Made by a program: the position numbers and the translations under genes
In this document: piece after piece, positions 19,681 to 27,768 of the stretch
Numbering within the stretch: position 1 is the first letter of the stretch
How the letters are laid out: each line of letters opens with the position of its first letter
The notes under the pieces: model-generated
The model's input: the letters and a program-made list of their open reading frames with translations, nothing else
Databases searched by the model: none
What the model was told of the DNA's origin: nothing
Source: Woeseiaceae bacterium
Lineage (GTDB): Bacteria; Pseudomonadota; Gammaproteobacteria; Steroidobacterales; Woeseiaceae
Assembly (NCBI GenBank): GCA_028277265.1
Contig: JANQGP010000406.1
Location: 1-35,494, forward strand
DNA length: 35,494 nt
Direction: 5' to 3'

Positions 19681-20301
19681 GTGAACAGCAAAATCACAGG
19701 ATCGCGCCTCGACGGCAATCGTCTGATCATCGAGACGACCGCCGGCGATCAGGTCTACGACGCCAAGTTCCTCGTCGCGGCTCTGCTCGTCTTCGTTGCC
19801 CGCGGCAGCGGGCGCATCGAACCCGAGGAGTCGGCCAAGATGATCGAACTGATCGAGCAGCATTTCCACATGCAGGGGGCCGAGTCCCTGGAGCTGCTGA
19901 CTTTCGCGATCTCCGAATTGGCCGACAAACCAGCGCTTGCGGATTTCCTGCAGGAGCTCGGCCCGACGCTGACCGACGCCGACAAGGAGGATATCGCGCT
20001 GATGGGGCTCAAGGTCGTGGCAGCGGACGGCAGACGCGACATCGCCGAAATGGAGCAGTTCAATACCGCAATGCGACTGATAGGCGCCTCGCCTGAAATC
20101 GTCCACCGCGCGTTCGATCGATATTTCGCCGAAACGATGCCCGGGGAGGAGCGCGGGCGCGCCTGCCGATGCAGCTATTTCCGGAGTGATTCCCGCAGCG
20201 ACTCGAGTTCTCCCCAGCGCTCGATCCGCTGCTCGAGCCGTTCCTCCGCCGAACCGAGCTCCTGCAGCTTCTGCTGCACGAGCTCTGCGTCCTGCGTATA
20301 G
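19681..20301 (+). CDS. TerB-like protein with atypical C-terminal extension
   Basis: GTG start; LVAALLVFVARGSGRIEPEESAKMIELIEQHF...LMGLKVVAADGRRDIAEMEQF; the last ~40 aa overlap uup antisense. Confidence 0.7.
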   Translation: MNSKITGSRLDGNRLIIETTAGDQVYDAKFLVAALLVFVARGSGRIEPEESAKMIELIEQHFHMQGAESLELLTFAISELADKPALADFLQELGPTLTDADKEDIALMGLKVVAADGRRDIAEMEQFNTAMRLIGASPEIVHRAFDRYFAETMPGEERGRACRCSYFRSDSRSDSSSPQRSIRCSSRSSAEPSSCSFCCTSSASCV

Positions 20302-22076
20302 AACCCCGGTGCGGCGATAGCCGCCTGGAGTGCCGCGACGGCCGCCTCGAGCTGATCGATCTCGCCCGGAAGCCGGTCGAGTTCGCGCTGGTCCTTGTAG
20401 CTCAGCTTGGTAGGCTTGCGGTTCCTGCGCTGCTCGGCTGCCGCCTGTCTTCGGCGTTCCTGTTCGAACGGGCTATCGGTGACCGCGAGTTCATGCCCGC
20501 GGCGGAGCCAGTCGCTATAGCCGCCGACGTATTCCAGGACGCGGCCGTCCTGCTCGAACACGATCGTGCTGGTTACGACGTTGTCCAGGAACTCGCGGTC
20601 GTGACTGACCACGATCAGGGTTCCCGCGTACTCGCACAGCTTTTGCTCGAGTACCTCGAGCGTCTCGATGTCGAGATCGTTGGTCGGTTCGTCGAGCACG
20701 AGAAGGTTCGCGGGTCGCGTCAGCAGCTTTGCGAGAATGACGCGATTGCGTTCACCGCCCGAAAGGGCCTTTACGGGCATCATCGAGCGCTTGGGGCTGA
20801 ACAGGAAGCCTTTCAGGTAGCCGACGACGTGCCGGTCCTTGCCGTTCAGACGGATGTAGGTGCGGCCTTCACCAACGTTGTAGGCGACGGACTTTTCCAG
20901 GTCGAGTTCCTGGCGCAGCTGGTCGAAGTAGCCGGTCTCCAGGCCGGTGCCCATCTTGAGTGTGCCGGTCTGTGGCTGCAGTTCGCCGAGCAACAGACGC
21001 AACAACGTGGTCTTGCCGACGCCGTTGTTTCCGATCAGACCGATACGGTCGCCGCGCATGATCTTGATCGAGAAATTCTCGATGACGGGTTCGTCCCCGT
21101 AGCTGTAGCCGATGTTGCGCGCGCGTATGACCTTTCGGCCGGACTGCTCGGCCTCCTCGATATGGATACGCGCCGCCCCCTCGCGCGCGACGCGCTCCTC
21201 GCGTTCCTCACGCATCTTCAGGAGAGCACGAACCCGGCCTTCGTTGCGGGTGCGTCGCGCCTTGATCCCCTGGCGGATCCAGGCTTCTTCTTCCGCCAGC
21301 TTCTTGTCGAATTTCCGTTCCGCGACGATTTCGTTTTCGAGCGCCTTTTCCTTGCGACGCAGGAAGTTACGGTAATCGCCCGGCCAGCTCGTCAGCTTGC
21401 CGCGATCGATTTCGACGATACGTGTCGCGAGGCGTTGCAGAAACGCGCGATCGTGCGTTATGAACAGCACGGCGCCGGGGTATCCGTACACACGGTCCTC
21501 GAGCCAGCGGATCGTCGCGATGTCGAGATGGTTTGTCGGCTCATCGAGTAACAGGAGATCGGGTTTCTGGACCAGCGCCTTGGCCAGTGCGACGCGTCGC
21601 CGCCAGCCGCCCGATAGCTGGTTCATTCTCTTGTCAGCCGGCAGGCTGAGCTCGGTAATCGTCGTTTCGACGCGCTGTTCGAGGTGCCACCCGTCGTGCG
21701 CATCGATTTTGGCGTGCAGCGCCTCGAGCTCACGTAGCCCGTGCTTGTCGAGATCGAGCTTCGAGCGTTCTTGGTAGTCGCGCAGCAGCGTCTCGATCTG
21801 CGTCAGCCCGTCGCGGATGACGTCGATCACGGGCTGGTCCATCGCCTCCGGCAGCGTCTGTTCGAGCTGGCTGACGATCAGGTCGTTGCGGGCCGTGATC
21901 TCCCCGCGATCCGGCTCCAGTGTCCCCATGAGGAGTTTGAGCGTTGTCGACTTGCCGGCACCGTTGCGACCGATGAGACACACGCGCTCGCCGGCGTCGA
22001 TCGAGAACTCGGCGTCGCGAAGGATGAGCTGTTCGCCAAACTCGAGGCAGATGTCGTCGAAGCGCAGCAGTGACAT
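20175..22076 (-). CDS. uup: ABC-F family ATPase (Uup-like)
   Basis: Two Walker A motifs (GRNGAGKST, GNNGVGKTT), signature motifs LSGGWRRRVALA and LSGGERNRVILA, C-terminal coiled coil. Confidence 0.92.
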   Translation of the reverse strand: MSLLRFDDICLEFGEQLILRDAEFSIDAGERVCLIGRNGAGKSTTLKLLMGTLEPDRGEITARNDLIVSQLEQTLPEAMDQPVIDVIRDGLTQIETLLRDYQERSKLDLDKHGLRELEALHAKIDAHDGWHLEQRVETTITELSLPADKRMNQLSGGWRRRVALAKALVQKPDLLLLDEPTNHLDIATIRWLEDRVYGYPGAVLFITHDRAFLQRLATRIVEIDRGKLTSWPGDYRNFLRRKEKALENEIVAERKFDKKLAEEEAWIRQGIKARRTRNEGRVRALLKMREEREERVAREGAARIHIEEAEQSGRKVIRARNIGYSYGDEPVIENFSIKIMRGDRIGLIGNNGVGKTTLLRLLLGELQPQTGTLKMGTGLETGYFDQLRQELDLEKSVAYNVGEGRTYIRLNGKDRHVVGYLKGFLFSPKRSMMPVKALSGGERNRVILAKLLTRPANLLVLDEPTNDLDIETLEVLEQKLCEYAGTLIVVSHDREFLDNVVTSTIVFEQDGRVLEYVGGYSDWLRRGHELAVTDSPFEQERRRQAAAEQRRNRKPTKLSYKDQRELDRLPGEIDQLEAAVAALQAAIAAPGFYTQDAELVQQKLQELGSAEERLEQRIERWGELESLRESLRK

Positions 22077-22346: not shown

Positions 22347-22402
22347 CAGCCTGTTGCGACGTTTGTCGTATAGTGATCGTTACGCAGCATCGGAGAGTCG
22401 CC

Positions 22403-25400
22403 ATGCCGAAGAAAACCGGACTTTTCGTTATCGCCTTGCTGATACTCGCAGGACCCGCCGCCGGCCAGGATGGCATCCCCGACGAGCTTGCCGGCTGGCA
22501 GGACTGGGTGCTCGAGGACCACGAATACCGCACCTGTCCGTTCTACTTCGATCGCCCGGCGACCGCGCGCGATGACTTCGTATGCACCTGGCCGGGCCGT
22601 CTGCGACTCGATGTCTCGTCAACCGGCGGCCGTTTCTCGCAGGACTGGACCGTTTATGGCGAGGCGCAGTGGGTCAACCTGCCCGGCAACACCGACCATT
22701 GGCCGGACCGGGTCACGGTTGACGATCGGCCGGTCGAGGTCGTCGCGCGGGACAACCTCCCGACTGTTCGCCTCGATCCCGGCTCGCACCGGGTATCCGG
22801 GCGATTTGCCTGGGACGAGCAGCCCGGCGTCCTGACGCTGCCCCGCTCCAGCGCTCTTCTTAGCCTGACCGTCGAGGGAGACACGGTCGAGCGCCCGGAG
22901 TTTTCCGGCAACGGCGTCTTCCTCGGCGAACGGCGGCGCGATACGCGTGCCGTCGATTCCGTGCGACTCGTCGTCTATCGGCTGATTGCCGACGATGTCC
23001 CGATGCGCGTGCTGACGCAACTGCAGGTCGACGTATCGGGGAGCGTTCGCGAAGAGTCGTTCGGTCCGGTTCTGCCCGGGGGTTTCATACCGCTGTCATT
23101 GCACAGCGAACTGCCGGCGAAACTCGAGGCGGACGGCGTTCTGCGGCTCCAGGTACGGCCGGGCCGATGGATCGTGCGCCTCGCCGCGAGAGCCGGTGGT
23201 GTCGCCGATAGCATCACGGTGCCGGCGGGCGGCGTCAACATGCCGGCCGAGGAAGTCTGGAGCTATCGCGCCAACGATCGCTTTCGCGTGACCGCCGCCG
23301 AAGGTCCGCCACCGGTCGACCCCGCCCAGGTCGATGTACCCGGGCCGTGGCGGAACCTGCCGGCCTACGGAATTGCATCGGGCGAAAGCCTGTCCGTGGT
23401 CGAGCGCAGTCGCGGCGTCATTTCGGCCAGCAACGAGCTTTCGTTGTATCGCACGATGTGGCTGGATTTCAGCGGGGCCGGGTTTGTCGTCGAGGACGAT
23501 ATCGGCGGACAGATGCGCACCGACTGGCGCCTCGACATGGGCGGACCCTACACGCTGCTGACGGCGACCGAGAACGACGAGAGCCTGCTCATTACGCGAG
23601 GCAGCGATGAGGGTGAAACCGGAATCGAGGTTCGCCAGACCAACGTGGAGATCAGTGCGCTCGGGCGAAGCGAAACGCGCGGTGCGATGCCCGTAACCGG
23701 CTGGGACGCGAGATTCGCGAGTGTCAATGCCGTCCTCAACCTGCCGCCCGGCAACAAGCTGCTGACGACATCGGGCGTCGACGGCGCACAGGGAAGCTGG
23801 ACCGGCCAGTGGCAGTTGCTCGACTTCTTCCTCGTACTGATCATCACGATCGCCGTTTGGCGCCTGTTCAACCCGGTCTCGGGCGTTATCGCGCTGCTTG
23901 CACTGACGCTGAGTTTTCACGAGCCGTTCGCCCCGACCTGGTTGTGGCTCAATCTGCTTGCAGCGATCGCACTGCTGCGCGTGACCCCGGACGGCAAGCT
24001 GCGCCGGTGGGTGCGTGGCTACCAGCTGGTCAGTGCGGCGTTGCTGGTCGTCGCTCTCGTGCCGTTTGTCGCCGGGCAGCTTCGCATTGCGATCTATCCG
24101 CAGCTCGAGTCGCAATACCCGCGGTCGCCACTGTTCGTCCCCGGCGCGGCAGCGCCGACGGACGAGATGGAGCAGCCGGAGTTGCGGATGCGAAAGGCGG
24201 CGATGGCCCCGGAGTCGCAGGTTTCATCGGCCGACTCGATGCTCGAGGAGATCGTCGTGACGGGTTCCGGCGACCTGCGGACATTCTCGCGCTACGCGCC
24301 CAATGCCATTGTCCAGGCCGGGCAGGGGATTCCGTCGTGGCGCTGGAACACGTACTCGCTGAGGTGGAATGGTCCCGTTGACCCCGAGCAGGCCATGCGC
24401 CTCGTCGTTTTGCCGCGCTGGCTCGTCAGCACGCTGCGGTTCGTCGAGGTCATGCTGCTACTGCTGTTCGCGGGTATCGTTGCCGCCGAGATTCTGAACC
24501 GGCAGTGGCGACTGCCGGGCGGTCTTGCGCTCGGGCGAAGTCCTGTCACAGGCGTGCTCGCGGCAGGCGTATGCGCCTCGTTGATGCTGACCGGCTCGCC
24601 TGCCGAAGCGGACATGCCGAGCGAGGAATTGCTTCAACAGCTCCAGCAGCGTCTCCTCGAGCCCCCCGATTGCGTGCCGCGCTGCGCCGAAATCGTTGCC
24701 GCTGGTGTCGAGGTCGGTGGCGAGGCGATCAGCATGTCGCTGAACGTGCACGCGCACGAAAGCGTCGCCATTCCGTTGCCGGGCACGTCGCGTGGCTGGC
24801 ATCCACAGGTAACAGCAGTCAATGGCAGCGCCGATGCGCGGGTATTCCGCGACGCCGGTTCGCGGCTCTGGCTGTACGTCACCCCGGGCATGCACAGCGT
24901 GAGCCTTCGCGGCGCGATCCCGGCGGCCGATAGTCTCGAGATTCCGTTCGCGTCGCCGCCGCGCGTGATCACCGTTGACAGCGATGGCTGGTTCGTTGCG
25001 GGTATCAGGGATCGTCGCCTGCTGTCGGGTTCGCTGCAACTGACACGGCTGCAAGTCGAAGCCGGCGGCGACACGATTCGTTGGGAGAGCAGCCGCTTCC
25101 CGCCGTTCGCGAGGGTCGAGCGGACGATCGAGCTGGATCTCGACTGGCGCGTCAGGACGACCGTGCAACGTGTCGCGCCAACGCAGGGTGCGGTAACCCT
25201 CGAGCTGCCGCTGATCGAAGGCGAAGATATCGTCAGCGGCGAATTCACCGTCCGGGACGGCACGGTGCTCGTGTCGATGAACCCGCAGCAGAACAGCGTT
25301 AGCTGGACGTCGAATCTGCCGCGCACGTCGCCGCTGACACTGACGGCCGGCGACGGTTCATTATGGTCCGAGCGCTGGCGCATCGCTGTCGGCAACATCT

Positions 25401-26452
25401 GGAACGTCGCTTTCGACGGCGTGCCGGAGAGCAATACGGGCGCCGAGGTCGACGCCGTACGTGTCGCGGAGTTCGATCCGCGCGCGGGCGAGACCCTGAC
25501 ACTCGTCGCCACGCGTCCCGAGGCGGCGGAAGGCGATACGCTCGCGTTCGACGCTGTTTCGCTCCAGGTGGACCAGGGTGATCGCAGTGCCGACGTCACG
25601 CTCGAACTCGACTATCGCAGTACGCGCGGCGCACAGCACATCCTGCGTTTGCCGGACGGCATCGAAATCAGGAGGGTTGCAATTGACGGTGTCGAGCAGA
25701 CGCTGCGCTCGGAGGCCGGCGAACTCACGCTGCCGATTCTGCCCGGGGAACACCGCGTCAGCATCGCCTGGCGGGCCGCCGACGGTTCATCCTGGCGCAC
25801 GGCGACTCCGGCCGTGGACCTCGGGGCGCCGGCGAGCAACATCGAGATCGGTATTGCGATGCCGGGCAGTCGCTGGATCCTCGGGACATCCGGGCCCAGG
25901 CTCGGCCCTGCCGTGCTGTACTGGTCGGAACTCGCTGCGATGGTCCTGTTCGCGCTGATTCTCGGGCGTATCGGACTGACGCCGCTCTCGACCCGGCACT
26001 GGCTGTTGCTCGGCCTCGGTTTCAGTACTTTCAGCTGGGGAATGCTGGCGCTCGTCGTCGTCTGGCTGGTCGCCTGTGGCGCCCGTGAGAAGATCAAAGC
26101 CGACGCCATGAACTGGTGGCAGTTCGACCTTGTCCAGGTCGCCATCGGCGGCCTCACCGTCGTCGCGTTGCTCGGCATCATCTCGGCGTTGCCGCAGGGC
26201 CTGCTCGGGACGCCGGACATGCACGTGGCCGGCCACGGTTCGTTCGGCAGCGACCTGAACTGGTTCGCCGACCGCAGTGACTCCGCGTTACCTGCAGCGT
26301 CAGCGTTTACCGCGCCCATGTGGGTTTACAAGACGCTGATCCTGGCCTGGGCGCTTTGGCTCAGCTTCGCGCTGCTGCGCTGGCTGCCGTGGGTATGGCG
26401 TTGCTTCAGTGACGACGGCTTCTGGCGCAAGCGGGTGAAGGGCCAGTCATGA
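22403..26452 (+). CDS. Large (~1350 aa) multi-domain envelope membrane protein of unknown function
   Basis: Signal MPKKTGLFVIALLILAGPAAGQ; extracytoplasmic beta-rich regions alternate with TM clusters (about nt 23810-24100, 24430-24500, 25910-26090, 26130-26200, 26330-26400). Confidence 0.85.
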   Translation: MPKKTGLFVIALLILAGPAAGQDGIPDELAGWQDWVLEDHEYRTCPFYFDRPATARDDFVCTWPGRLRLDVSSTGGRFSQDWTVYGEAQWVNLPGNTDHWPDRVTVDDRPVEVVARDNLPTVRLDPGSHRVSGRFAWDEQPGVLTLPRSSALLSLTVEGDTVERPEFSGNGVFLGERRRDTRAVDSVRLVVYRLIADDVPMRVLTQLQVDVSGSVREESFGPVLPGGFIPLSLHSELPAKLEADGVLRLQVRPGRWIVRLAARAGGVADSITVPAGGVNMPAEEVWSYRANDRFRVTAAEGPPPVDPAQVDVPGPWRNLPAYGIASGESLSVVERSRGVISASNELSLYRTMWLDFSGAGFVVEDDIGGQMRTDWRLDMGGPYTLLTATENDESLLITRGSDEGETGIEVRQTNVEISALGRSETRGAMPVTGWDARFASVNAVLNLPPGNKLLTTSGVDGAQGSWTGQWQLLDFFLVLIITIAVWRLFNPVSGVIALLALTLSFHEPFAPTWLWLNLLAAIALLRVTPDGKLRRWVRGYQLVSAALLVVALVPFVAGQLRIAIYPQLESQYPRSPLFVPGAAAPTDEMEQPELRMRKAAMAPESQVSSADSMLEEIVVTGSGDLRTFSRYAPNAIVQAGQGIPSWRWNTYSLRWNGPVDPEQAMRLVVLPRWLVSTLRFVEVMLLLLFAGIVAAEILNRQWRLPGGLALGRSPVTGVLAAGVCASLMLTGSPAEADMPSEELLQQLQQRLLEPPDCVPRCAEIVAAGVEVGGEAISMSLNVHAHESVAIPLPGTSRGWHPQVTAVNGSADARVFRDAGSRLWLYVTPGMHSVSLRGAIPAADSLEIPFASPPRVITVDSDGWFVAGIRDRRLLSGSLQLTRLQVEAGGDTIRWESSRFPPFARVERTIELDLDWRVRTTVQRVAPTQGAVTLELPLIEGEDIVSGEFTVRDGTVLVSMNPQQNSVSWTSNLPRTSPLTLTAGDGSLWSERWRIAVGNIWNVAFDGVPESNTGAEVDAVRVAEFDPRAGETLTLVATRPEAAEGDTLAFDAVSLQVDQGDRSADVTLELDYRSTRGAQHILRLPDGIEIRRVAIDGVEQTLRSEAGELTLPILPGEHRVSIAWRAADGSSWRTATPAVDLGAPASNIEIGIAMPGSRWILGTSGPRLGPAVLYWSELAAMVLFALILGRIGLTPLSTRHWLLLGLGFSTFSWGMLALVVVWLVACGAREKIKADAMNWWQFDLVQVAIGGLTVVALLGIISALPQGLLGTPDMHVAGHGSFGSDLNWFADRSDSALPAASAFTAPMWVYKTLILAWALWLSFALLRWLPWVWRCFSDDGFWRKRVKGQS

Positions 26453-27057
26453 AGATCGCGTGGATCGCAATCTTCCTTGGCGTGCTGATATGGTCCGGTA
26501 TCGGGCCGAAGGACTTTCTGACCTGGTGCCTCGAAGTTTCGCCGGCGGTGATCGGGGGCGCGATCCTGTGGATTACGCGAGAGCGCTTTCCGCTGACGAC
26601 GATGACCTACGTCCTGATCCTGGTTCATTGCGTGATTCTGATGGTCGGCGGTCACTACACCTATGCCGACGTACCGATCGGCGAGTGGTTCCGCGAGGCG
26701 TTTGACGGTACCCGCAACAACTACGACAAGCTCGGTCACTTCGTGCAGGGTTTCGTTCCGGCGATCATCGCCCGCGAGCTCATGATTCGTCTCCACGTCT
26801 TCAACTCGGTGCGCTGGCGCGATTTCTTCATTGTGAGCTTCTGCCTCGGGTTCAGTGCGTTCTACGAGTTGATCGAATGGTGGGTAGCGCTCCTGTCTGA
26901 GGAGGCTGCCGCCAGCTTCCTCGGCATGCAGGGATATATCTGGGATACGCAGTCGGACATGGGCTGGGCGCTGATCGGTGCGGTGCTTGCGTTGGCTCTC
27001 CTCGGCCGCTGGCACGATCGACAACTGCGTGAACACGGTTTCATCAACGAGGTCTGA
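26449..27057 (+). CDS. DUF2238 / YjdF-family inner membrane protein
   Basis: YDKLGHFVQGFVPAIIARELM...GFSAFYELIEWWVALLS...YIWDTQSDMGWALIGAVLAL; ATGA overlap with the upstream gene. Confidence 0.9.
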   Translation: MKIAWIAIFLGVLIWSGIGPKDFLTWCLEVSPAVIGGAILWITRERFPLTTMTYVLILVHCVILMVGGHYTYADVPIGEWFREAFDGTRNNYDKLGHFVQGFVPAIIARELMIRLHVFNSVRWRDFFIVSFCLGFSAFYELIEWWVALLSEEAAASFLGMQGYIWDTQSDMGWALIGAVLALALLGRWHDRQLREHGFINEV

Positions 27058-27063
27058 TCGACT

Positions 27064-27768
27064 GTGAGACGCCTTCTCGCTACCTGTTGTCTGATGTCCT
27101 GCGTCGGCCTTGCGCAGGCAAACGAGTGCGTCGTCTTGTTGCACGGCCTGATTCGCTCGTCGACTTCGATGAACAAGATGCAGCGCGAACTCGACGACGC
27201 CGGGTTCGTGACCGCGAACATCGACTATCCGTCGCGCGACTACACGATCGAGGAACTGGCCGACATGGCCGTGCCGCAAGGCCTCGCGGAGTGCCGCAGC
27301 CATGACGGCGTCGAACGCATTCATTTCGTGACACATTCGCTCGGCGGGATTCTCGTGCGCCAGTACCTGAGTGGCAACGAAATCCCGGAGCTGGGGCGCG
27401 TGGTCATGCTGGGACCGCCGAACCAGGGCAGTATCGCGGCCGACGACATGGGCGGCGTTCCCGGATTCGAGTGGCTCAACGGCCCCGCCGGGCGGCAGCT
27501 CGGCAAAGGCGAGGATAGCGTGCCGCGCAGGCTCGGCCCGGCCGACTTCGAGCTCGGTGTAATCGCCGGAAGCCGGACCATTGACCCGATCACGTCGGCG
27601 GTGCTCGATGACCCGGACGACGGCCGCGTCTCGGTTGAAGATACGAAGCTCGAGGGCATGACGGACTTCGTTGTCGTCGAACATTCTCACGCCTTCATGA
27701 TGCGCATGCAGAGACCGATCGAGCTGACGATCAGGTTCCTCCGGACCGGCGCATTCGAGAGCGAGTGA
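27064..27768 (+). CDS. Exported alpha/beta hydrolase (lipase/esterase-like)
   Basis: GTG start; signal MRRLLATCCLMSCVGLAQA; VVLLHGLIRS; nucleophile elbow THSLGG; EHSHAFMM candidate catalytic His. Confidence 0.87.
   Translation: MRRLLATCCLMSCVGLAQANECVVLLHGLIRSSTSMNKMQRELDDAGFVTANIDYPSRDYTIEELADMAVPQGLAECRSHDGVERIHFVTHSLGGILVRQYLSGNEIPELGRVVMLGPPNQGSIAADDMGGVPGFEWLNGPAGRQLGKGEDSVPRRLGPADFELGVIAGSRTIDPITSAVLDDPDDGRVSVEDTKLEGMTDFVVVEHSHAFMMRMQRPIELTIRFLRTGAFESE

Follow-up and report, generated by a model that had tools for sequence, protein, structure and literature searches.

A probably tandem-duplicated membrane protein of a Woeseiaceae bacterium with ribophorin I-like lobes and a TonB-box-like linker motif

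What kind of protein is a 1349-residue membrane protein that belongs to no named family? The gene in question lies in a 35,494-nt stretch of DNA from a Woeseiaceae bacterium (assembly GCA_028277265.1, contig JANQGP010000406.1, positions 1 to 35,494, forward strand), here called the window. A first-pass annotation had described the product as a membrane protein of about 1350 residues with three internal PG-x-H-x-V-S repeats, and had proposed duplicated extracytoplasmic beta-domains joined by transmembrane (TM) clusters. The open reading frame (ORF) is real: its start is the ATG at 22403, a few bases downstream of GGAGAG, and its stop is at 26452 (an alternative GTG start at 22373 would lengthen the protein by 10 residues). 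In agreement with the annotation, no family was found when Pfam, NCBIfam and PDB sequences were searched with the protein and with 25 homologues (and, for PDB only, with a profile). A first contig scan with the single sequence as query found nothing; an alignment used as query then yielded 567 confirmed relatives, the best 80 of which were used in this work.

Comparison of the two halves

We compared the three PG-x-H segments by profile-profile alignment (hhalign), using excerpts around each segment cut from alignments of 71-73 homologues. All three proved related (segments 1 and 2, E 4.4e-11; segments 1 and 3, E 4.3e-7; segments 2 and 3, E 4.4e-7; each E-value represents one pairwise comparison), with starts at nt 22679, 24776 and 25649, 1-4 nt from those first given. 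The repeat motif itself stood in part. Across 25 homologues, segments 1 and 2 always keep its Gly; segment 3 always keeps the Pro and has the Gly at least 90% conserved. The motif's His and Ser are not conserved. Two points can be added: the beta-domains number four and not three (the fourth, N2, has no recognisable PG-x-H segment), and the related segments sit inside two full-length duplicate halves.

The N-half (aa 18-735) aligned with the C-half (aa 690-1349) over 407 columns (probability 97%, E 3.6e-11), with a score of 100.6 for the true pair against 15-23 when one half was reversed or column-shuffled. Homology between the halves covers the periplasmic lobes, which alone gave E 1e-10, and reaches into the first TM helix; the domain pairs N1-C1 and, weakly, N2-C2 were matched (Table 1), as was C1-C2 over the repeat segment (E 5e-6). 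For TM helices 2-5 no sequence homology between the halves was detectable by hhalign, and their duplication is therefore argued from the order of elements only. A hidden Markov model of the C-half, run over whole genomes, independently gave weak matches to the N-half repeat, in four genomes (E 6e-4 to 0.05). No single-unit, half-length relatives were found in 200 genomes.

That order of elements was taken from AlphaFold2 (AF2), with which the halves were modelled apart, so that their packing against one another lies outside the models (mean predicted local distance difference test, pLDDT, 85.5 and 87.9; predicted TM-score, pTM, 0.60 and 0.52). Both halves follow the same order of beta strands, four helices, a beta-hairpin and one helix, and each PG-x-H segment forms consecutive beta strands inside a beta-domain. 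We conclude that the protein is very probably a tandem duplication of one unit, in which a signal-like helix leads into two beta-domains (together ~430 aa), after which come four TM helices, a short beta-hairpin and a last TM helix. The proposal of duplicated beta-domains joined by TM clusters is thus borne out by the half-half alignment with its negative controls and by the common element order, as are the signal peptide (hydropathy) and the second signal-like hydrophobic stretch (hydropathy and AF2). The annotation had also named outcomes that would tell against it, namely failure of the protein to align with itself, domains unrelated to one another, or membership of a characterised family; on examination none of these was found. 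It overlooked that the duplication takes in the entire protein, that there is a likeness to ribophorin I, and that the linker carries a TonB-box-like motif.

In each unit, TM1, TM3 and TM5 are each succeeded by basic residues. By the positive-inside rule, this pattern would place the lobes, the hairpins and the inter-unit linker in the periplasm and the C-terminus in the cytoplasm. Two pairs of invariant Cys (aa 45, 61, 757 and 761; nt 22535, 22583, 24671 and 24683) fall on the predicted periplasmic side, one pair at the start of each lobe; domain N1 begins just ahead of the second of these (C61). The pairs possibly form disulfides at equivalent places of both units.

The linker motif LEEIVVTG

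Neither the length nor the sequence of the linker (aa 567-638) is constant, yet in many relatives an E-E-I-V-V-T-G-like core lies a short way ahead of the conserved hairpin. A strict motif pattern was present in 16 of 78 linkers, whereas shuffled linkers gave a mean of 0.028 and a maximum of 1 in 1000 trials; because the pattern was picked after the motif had been seen in the window, the count describes the strength of the signal and is not a blind test. Outside the linkers, the pattern had 0 matches in 100,809 residues of the same proteins. Among 18 same-genus proteins, mean identity was 56% over the eight motif columns, against 23% in the linker before it and 31% in the nine columns after it (60% for the whole protein). 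A tree built on the C-half separates two deep clades (SH-like approximate likelihood ratio test, SH-aLRT, 100), and a slightly looser pattern placed the motif in 20/37 members of clade I versus 0/39 of clade II.

We also searched the window's genome with a DNA pattern covering one spelling family of the motif, and obtained nine occurrences. Seven directly precede a Plug domain within their ORF, one is in this gene and one in an Rhs-repeat-like ORF. The last (L174, G000:C177) carries IEEIVVTG in its C-terminal part, at G000:C177:12590, outside any receptor; it has no Pfam match at E<=0.01 and was called Rhs-like by eye.

The L-E-E-I-V-V-T-G core is therefore common to this protein and to TonB-dependent receptors (PF07715/PF00593), in a stretch that is flexible and, from the predicted topology, would be periplasmic. 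Unlike the receptors, the duplicated protein showed neither a Plug domain nor an outer-membrane barrel (Pfam search, AF2 models); it is very probably an inner-membrane protein and has its motif in a mid-protein linker. Bacteriocins use a TonB-box-like core for import. Those with a TonB box of their own, such as pyocin S2 (PMC9022066), are likewise non-receptor proteins bearing the box, but they are secreted and imported from outside, whereas ours is, by prediction, a resident inner-membrane protein. The long ExbB, also of the inner membrane, has a disordered periplasmic extension with which it binds the C-terminal domain of the TonB paralogue HasB (PMC9008036); it does so, however, on the side opposite the TonB-box site, and it belongs to the motor itself. 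We found no report of TonB boxes in resident inner-membrane proteins in the literature, subscription papers lying outside the search. Judging by sequence, the clade I linker plausibly docks on TonB, although we would not quite call this probable. Should the motif function as a TonB box, TonB clients would go beyond outer-membrane receptors and imported bacteriocins.

Fold likeness and possible function

For both halves the best structural match in the PDB was yeast Ost1 or human ribophorin I (Foldseek; best E 1e-7 and 2e-9), and the next matches included, among others, the N-terminal domains of M1 aminopeptidases (Foldseek probability 1.0, roughly 150-240 columns). In Ost1, a single TM helix accompanies two luminal beta-domains that resemble each other (PMC7226087). 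In each half, AF2 and Foldseek likewise place two similar beta-domains in a row, here periplasmic by prediction, before a membrane helix, the overall TM-score being low. Ost1/ribophorin I, of oligosaccharyltransferase (OST) subcomplex I, is nevertheless a eukaryotic protein of one unit and one TM helix, in complex with Stt3, whereas the duplicated protein has two units and ten or more TM helices in bacterial hosts that mostly lack Stt3. At the level of sequence, the 25 homologues gave no Pfam match to a ribophorin family at E<=1, and there was no PDB sequence match. The M1 N-terminal domain (PF17900) shares the beta-domain fold and C2 is weakly alike in sequence profile, but the PF17900 model itself gave no match and the duplicated protein has no catalytic domain: Pfam returned no peptidase family that would bring a zinc-binding catalytic domain, and nothing but beta lobes and membrane helices appears in the models. 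The likeness to ribophorin I gives a bacterial setting to a fold otherwise described chiefly from eukaryotic oligosaccharyltransferase and M1 peptidases.

Our best explanation is that the protein would be a periplasm-facing, non-catalytic scaffold in the inner membrane, whose lobes would bind an envelope partner or a glycan or peptide substrate in the periplasm. In clade I the linker between the halves would dock on TonB, and the clade II homologues (Methylococcales and others) would do the core job without it. A scaffold of this kind is favoured because the neighbours are unconserved, exosortase does not co-occur and STT3 is absent from this genome and most carriers. As a whole the explanation is tentative, and we place it just below an even chance. 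Several results weigh against it. Gene neighbours point to no function: at about 80 loci synteny is lineage-local only, so that no functional operon emerges. Global TM-scores to Ost1 are low (0.13-0.28, with a root-mean-square deviation of about 20 A over ~370 columns), so that the likeness is one of local structure only; we read these scores as the same modelled domains set at different angles. Sequence support for kinship with M1 or ribophorin is weak, an M1 N-domain profile from the order to which the window's organism belongs matching C2 only (pairwise E 3.6e-4 versus 0.13 reversed). Some members of clade I (for example L008, L014, L015 and L044) have lost the motif or keep only a degenerate form of it. 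The higher density of Plug domains in motif-bearing genomes (5.75 versus 2.44 per Mb, p 7e-5) speaks for the explanation, but this comparison is confounded by kinship.

The same scaffold could also carry the motif in a role apart from TonB, as a protease site or as a generic strand-forming linker motif common to receptors and Rhs proteins. Such a role would fit the retention of the rest of the protein in motif-less clade II, as well as the Rhs-like ORF of the window's genome, but the core is letter for letter that of the genome's own receptors just before the Plug domain, and it occurs only in the linker, where the compartment is right by prediction, and is conserved within an otherwise unalignable stretch. 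We therefore consider this role somewhat unlikely. Quite improbable, in our view, is a bacterial counterpart of ribophorin I, which would hold acceptor proteins or glycans as a non-catalytic accessory to an oligosaccharyltransferase in the membrane or to another glycan-transferring enzyme. Ribophorin I is the top structural match of both halves and STT3/PglB-type genes are over-represented among carrier genomes (5/25 versus 5/274, Fisher p 5e-4); the enrichment is, however, mild and largely that of one genus, which holds three of the five positive carriers, and the other 20/25, the window's genome included, had no STT3 match. No glycan-transfer gene is found among the conserved neighbours, and because M1 aminopeptidases have the fold too, the likeness does not point to glycosylation in particular.

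An ion or solute transporter, in which the two 5-TM bundles would together make up a pseudo-symmetric path with the periplasmic lobes as its gate, is slightly more doubtful still: paired equivalent TM bundles arising by duplication are typical of transporters, but no invariant charged residue was seen by eye clearly within the TM helices of 25 homologues, and no transporter fold is among the listed structural matches. As for a component of exosortase/PEP-CTERM or exopolysaccharide machinery, several carrier lineages (methylotrophs, Azoarcus) presumably have exosortase, which served as a lead only. Exosortase exceeded the cut-off in 2/25 carriers (3 with a weak one) versus 53/299 genomes overall, and none was found in the window's genome; the link was rejected, there being no positive co-occurrence with carriers, and such a component is barely credible.

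Returning to a duplicated scaffold that docks on TonB in clade I, one further step would be that TonB-ExbBD pulls on the tether between the two ribophorin-like halves, making a resident inner-membrane protein a TonB client with mechanical work done through it. This we regard as unlikely. Were TonB to pull the tether, the proton gradient would power inner-membrane or periplasmic work and not an outer-membrane receptor.

Parts, neighbours and distribution

The features of the gene are collected in Table 1.

Table 1. Features of the duplicated-protein gene and its overlapping neighbour (window coordinates)
Feature	Position	Strand	Basis
Whole gene, two tandem units (very probable)	22403..26452	+	1349 aa; ORF, full-length homologues at 28-80% identity
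N-terminal signal peptide / signal anchor	22403..22468	+	Hydropathy; K-K start, hydrophobic core, then A-G-Q
Beta-domain N1, unit 1, contains segment 1	22571..23206	+	AF2; hhalign N1-C1 E 7e-9
Segment 1 (LPGNTDHW...PGSHRVSG)	22679..22822	+	hhalign; Gly127 invariant
Beta-domain N2, unit 1, no clear PG-x-H segment	23207..23812	+	AF2; hhalign N2-C2 pairwise E 1.3e-4, weak
Unit 1 four TM helices	23816..24094	+	AF2 helices at model 455-547; hydropathy
Inter-unit linker, disordered, predicted periplasmic	24101..24316 (aa 567-638)	+	AF2 pLDDT about 35-50 over most of its length; highly variable; positive-inside pattern
TonB-box-like motif LEEIVVTG	24242..24265 (aa 614-621)	+	Linker enrichment; core of seven Plug ORFs; identity above flank
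Unit 1 beta-hairpin, predicted periplasmic, conserved (W-x-W...L-x-W-x-GPV)	24347..24412	+	AF2; invariant columns
Unit 1 fifth TM helix	24416..24493	+	AF2
Second signal-like hydrophobic helix, predicted to re-enter periplasm	24542..24613	+	Hydropathy; AF2
Beta-domain C1, unit 2, contains segment 2	24671..25327	+	AF2, hhalign; C-x-P-x-C at start
Segment 2 (LPGTSRGW...PGMHSVSL)	24776..24922	+	hhalign
Beta-domain C2, unit 2, contains segment 3	25328..25906	+	AF2; weak Peptidase_M1_N profile match
Segment 3 (LPDGIEIRRVAIDG...PGEHRVSI)	25649..25780	+	hhalign
Unit 2 four TM helices	25919..26203	+	AF2 model 484-578
Unit 2 beta-hairpin, predicted periplasmic, conserved	26252..26317	+	AF2
Last TM helix, then basic tail, predicted cytoplasmic	26318..26410	+	AF2
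DUF2238 gene, downstream, ATGA overlap with duplicated-protein gene	26449..27057	+	Domain match; retained 3' in about 8 Woeseia-like loci

Synteny with an ABC-F gene and a DUF2238 gene is seen in Woeseia-like genomes. The ABC-F type ATPase gene (window 20175-22076, minus strand) lies upstream and divergent, a position kept in about 14 loci. Downstream, window 26449-27768 encodes the DUF2238 membrane protein followed by a signal-peptide-bearing alpha/beta hydrolase, both of which recur 3' of the gene in Woeseia-like genomes; the DUF2238 gene is probably co-transcribed with the duplicated-protein gene in these loci. Elsewhere, neighbours were labelled mpl (methylotrophs) and prmC (Xanthomonadales) by reading, neither being confirmed by domain search.

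The window's genome has one copy of the gene, and the family is present in 32/60 near relatives, 38/274 genomes of the class and 25/299 of the phylum. Homologues are full length unless the contig ends within them or the frame is broken. They include proteins of Woeseiaceae, Rhodanobacteraceae, Methylococcales, Thiomargarita and Mariprofundaceae, as well as of metagenome-assembled genomes labelled Desulfobulbaceae, Nitrospirae, Myxococcales and Acidobacteria. The family is thus full-length and patchily spread in Pseudomonadota, and a protein of 1350 aa, full length across much of that phylum and having neither a name nor a domain model, is an annotation gap.

Two homologues stand apart. That of Azoarcus sp. 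KH32C (L002), annotated 'hypothetical protein', is carried near a replication initiation gene on the 738-kb plasmid pAZKH; it was the sole match among 72,556 plasmid records and suggests occasional horizontal transfer. The other (G044:C18:29513-33557) consists of two ORFs (798 and 597 aa) that overlap, with the break almost exactly at the unit boundary, whereas its congener G057 has a single ORF; the split is either a real gene fission or a frameshift.

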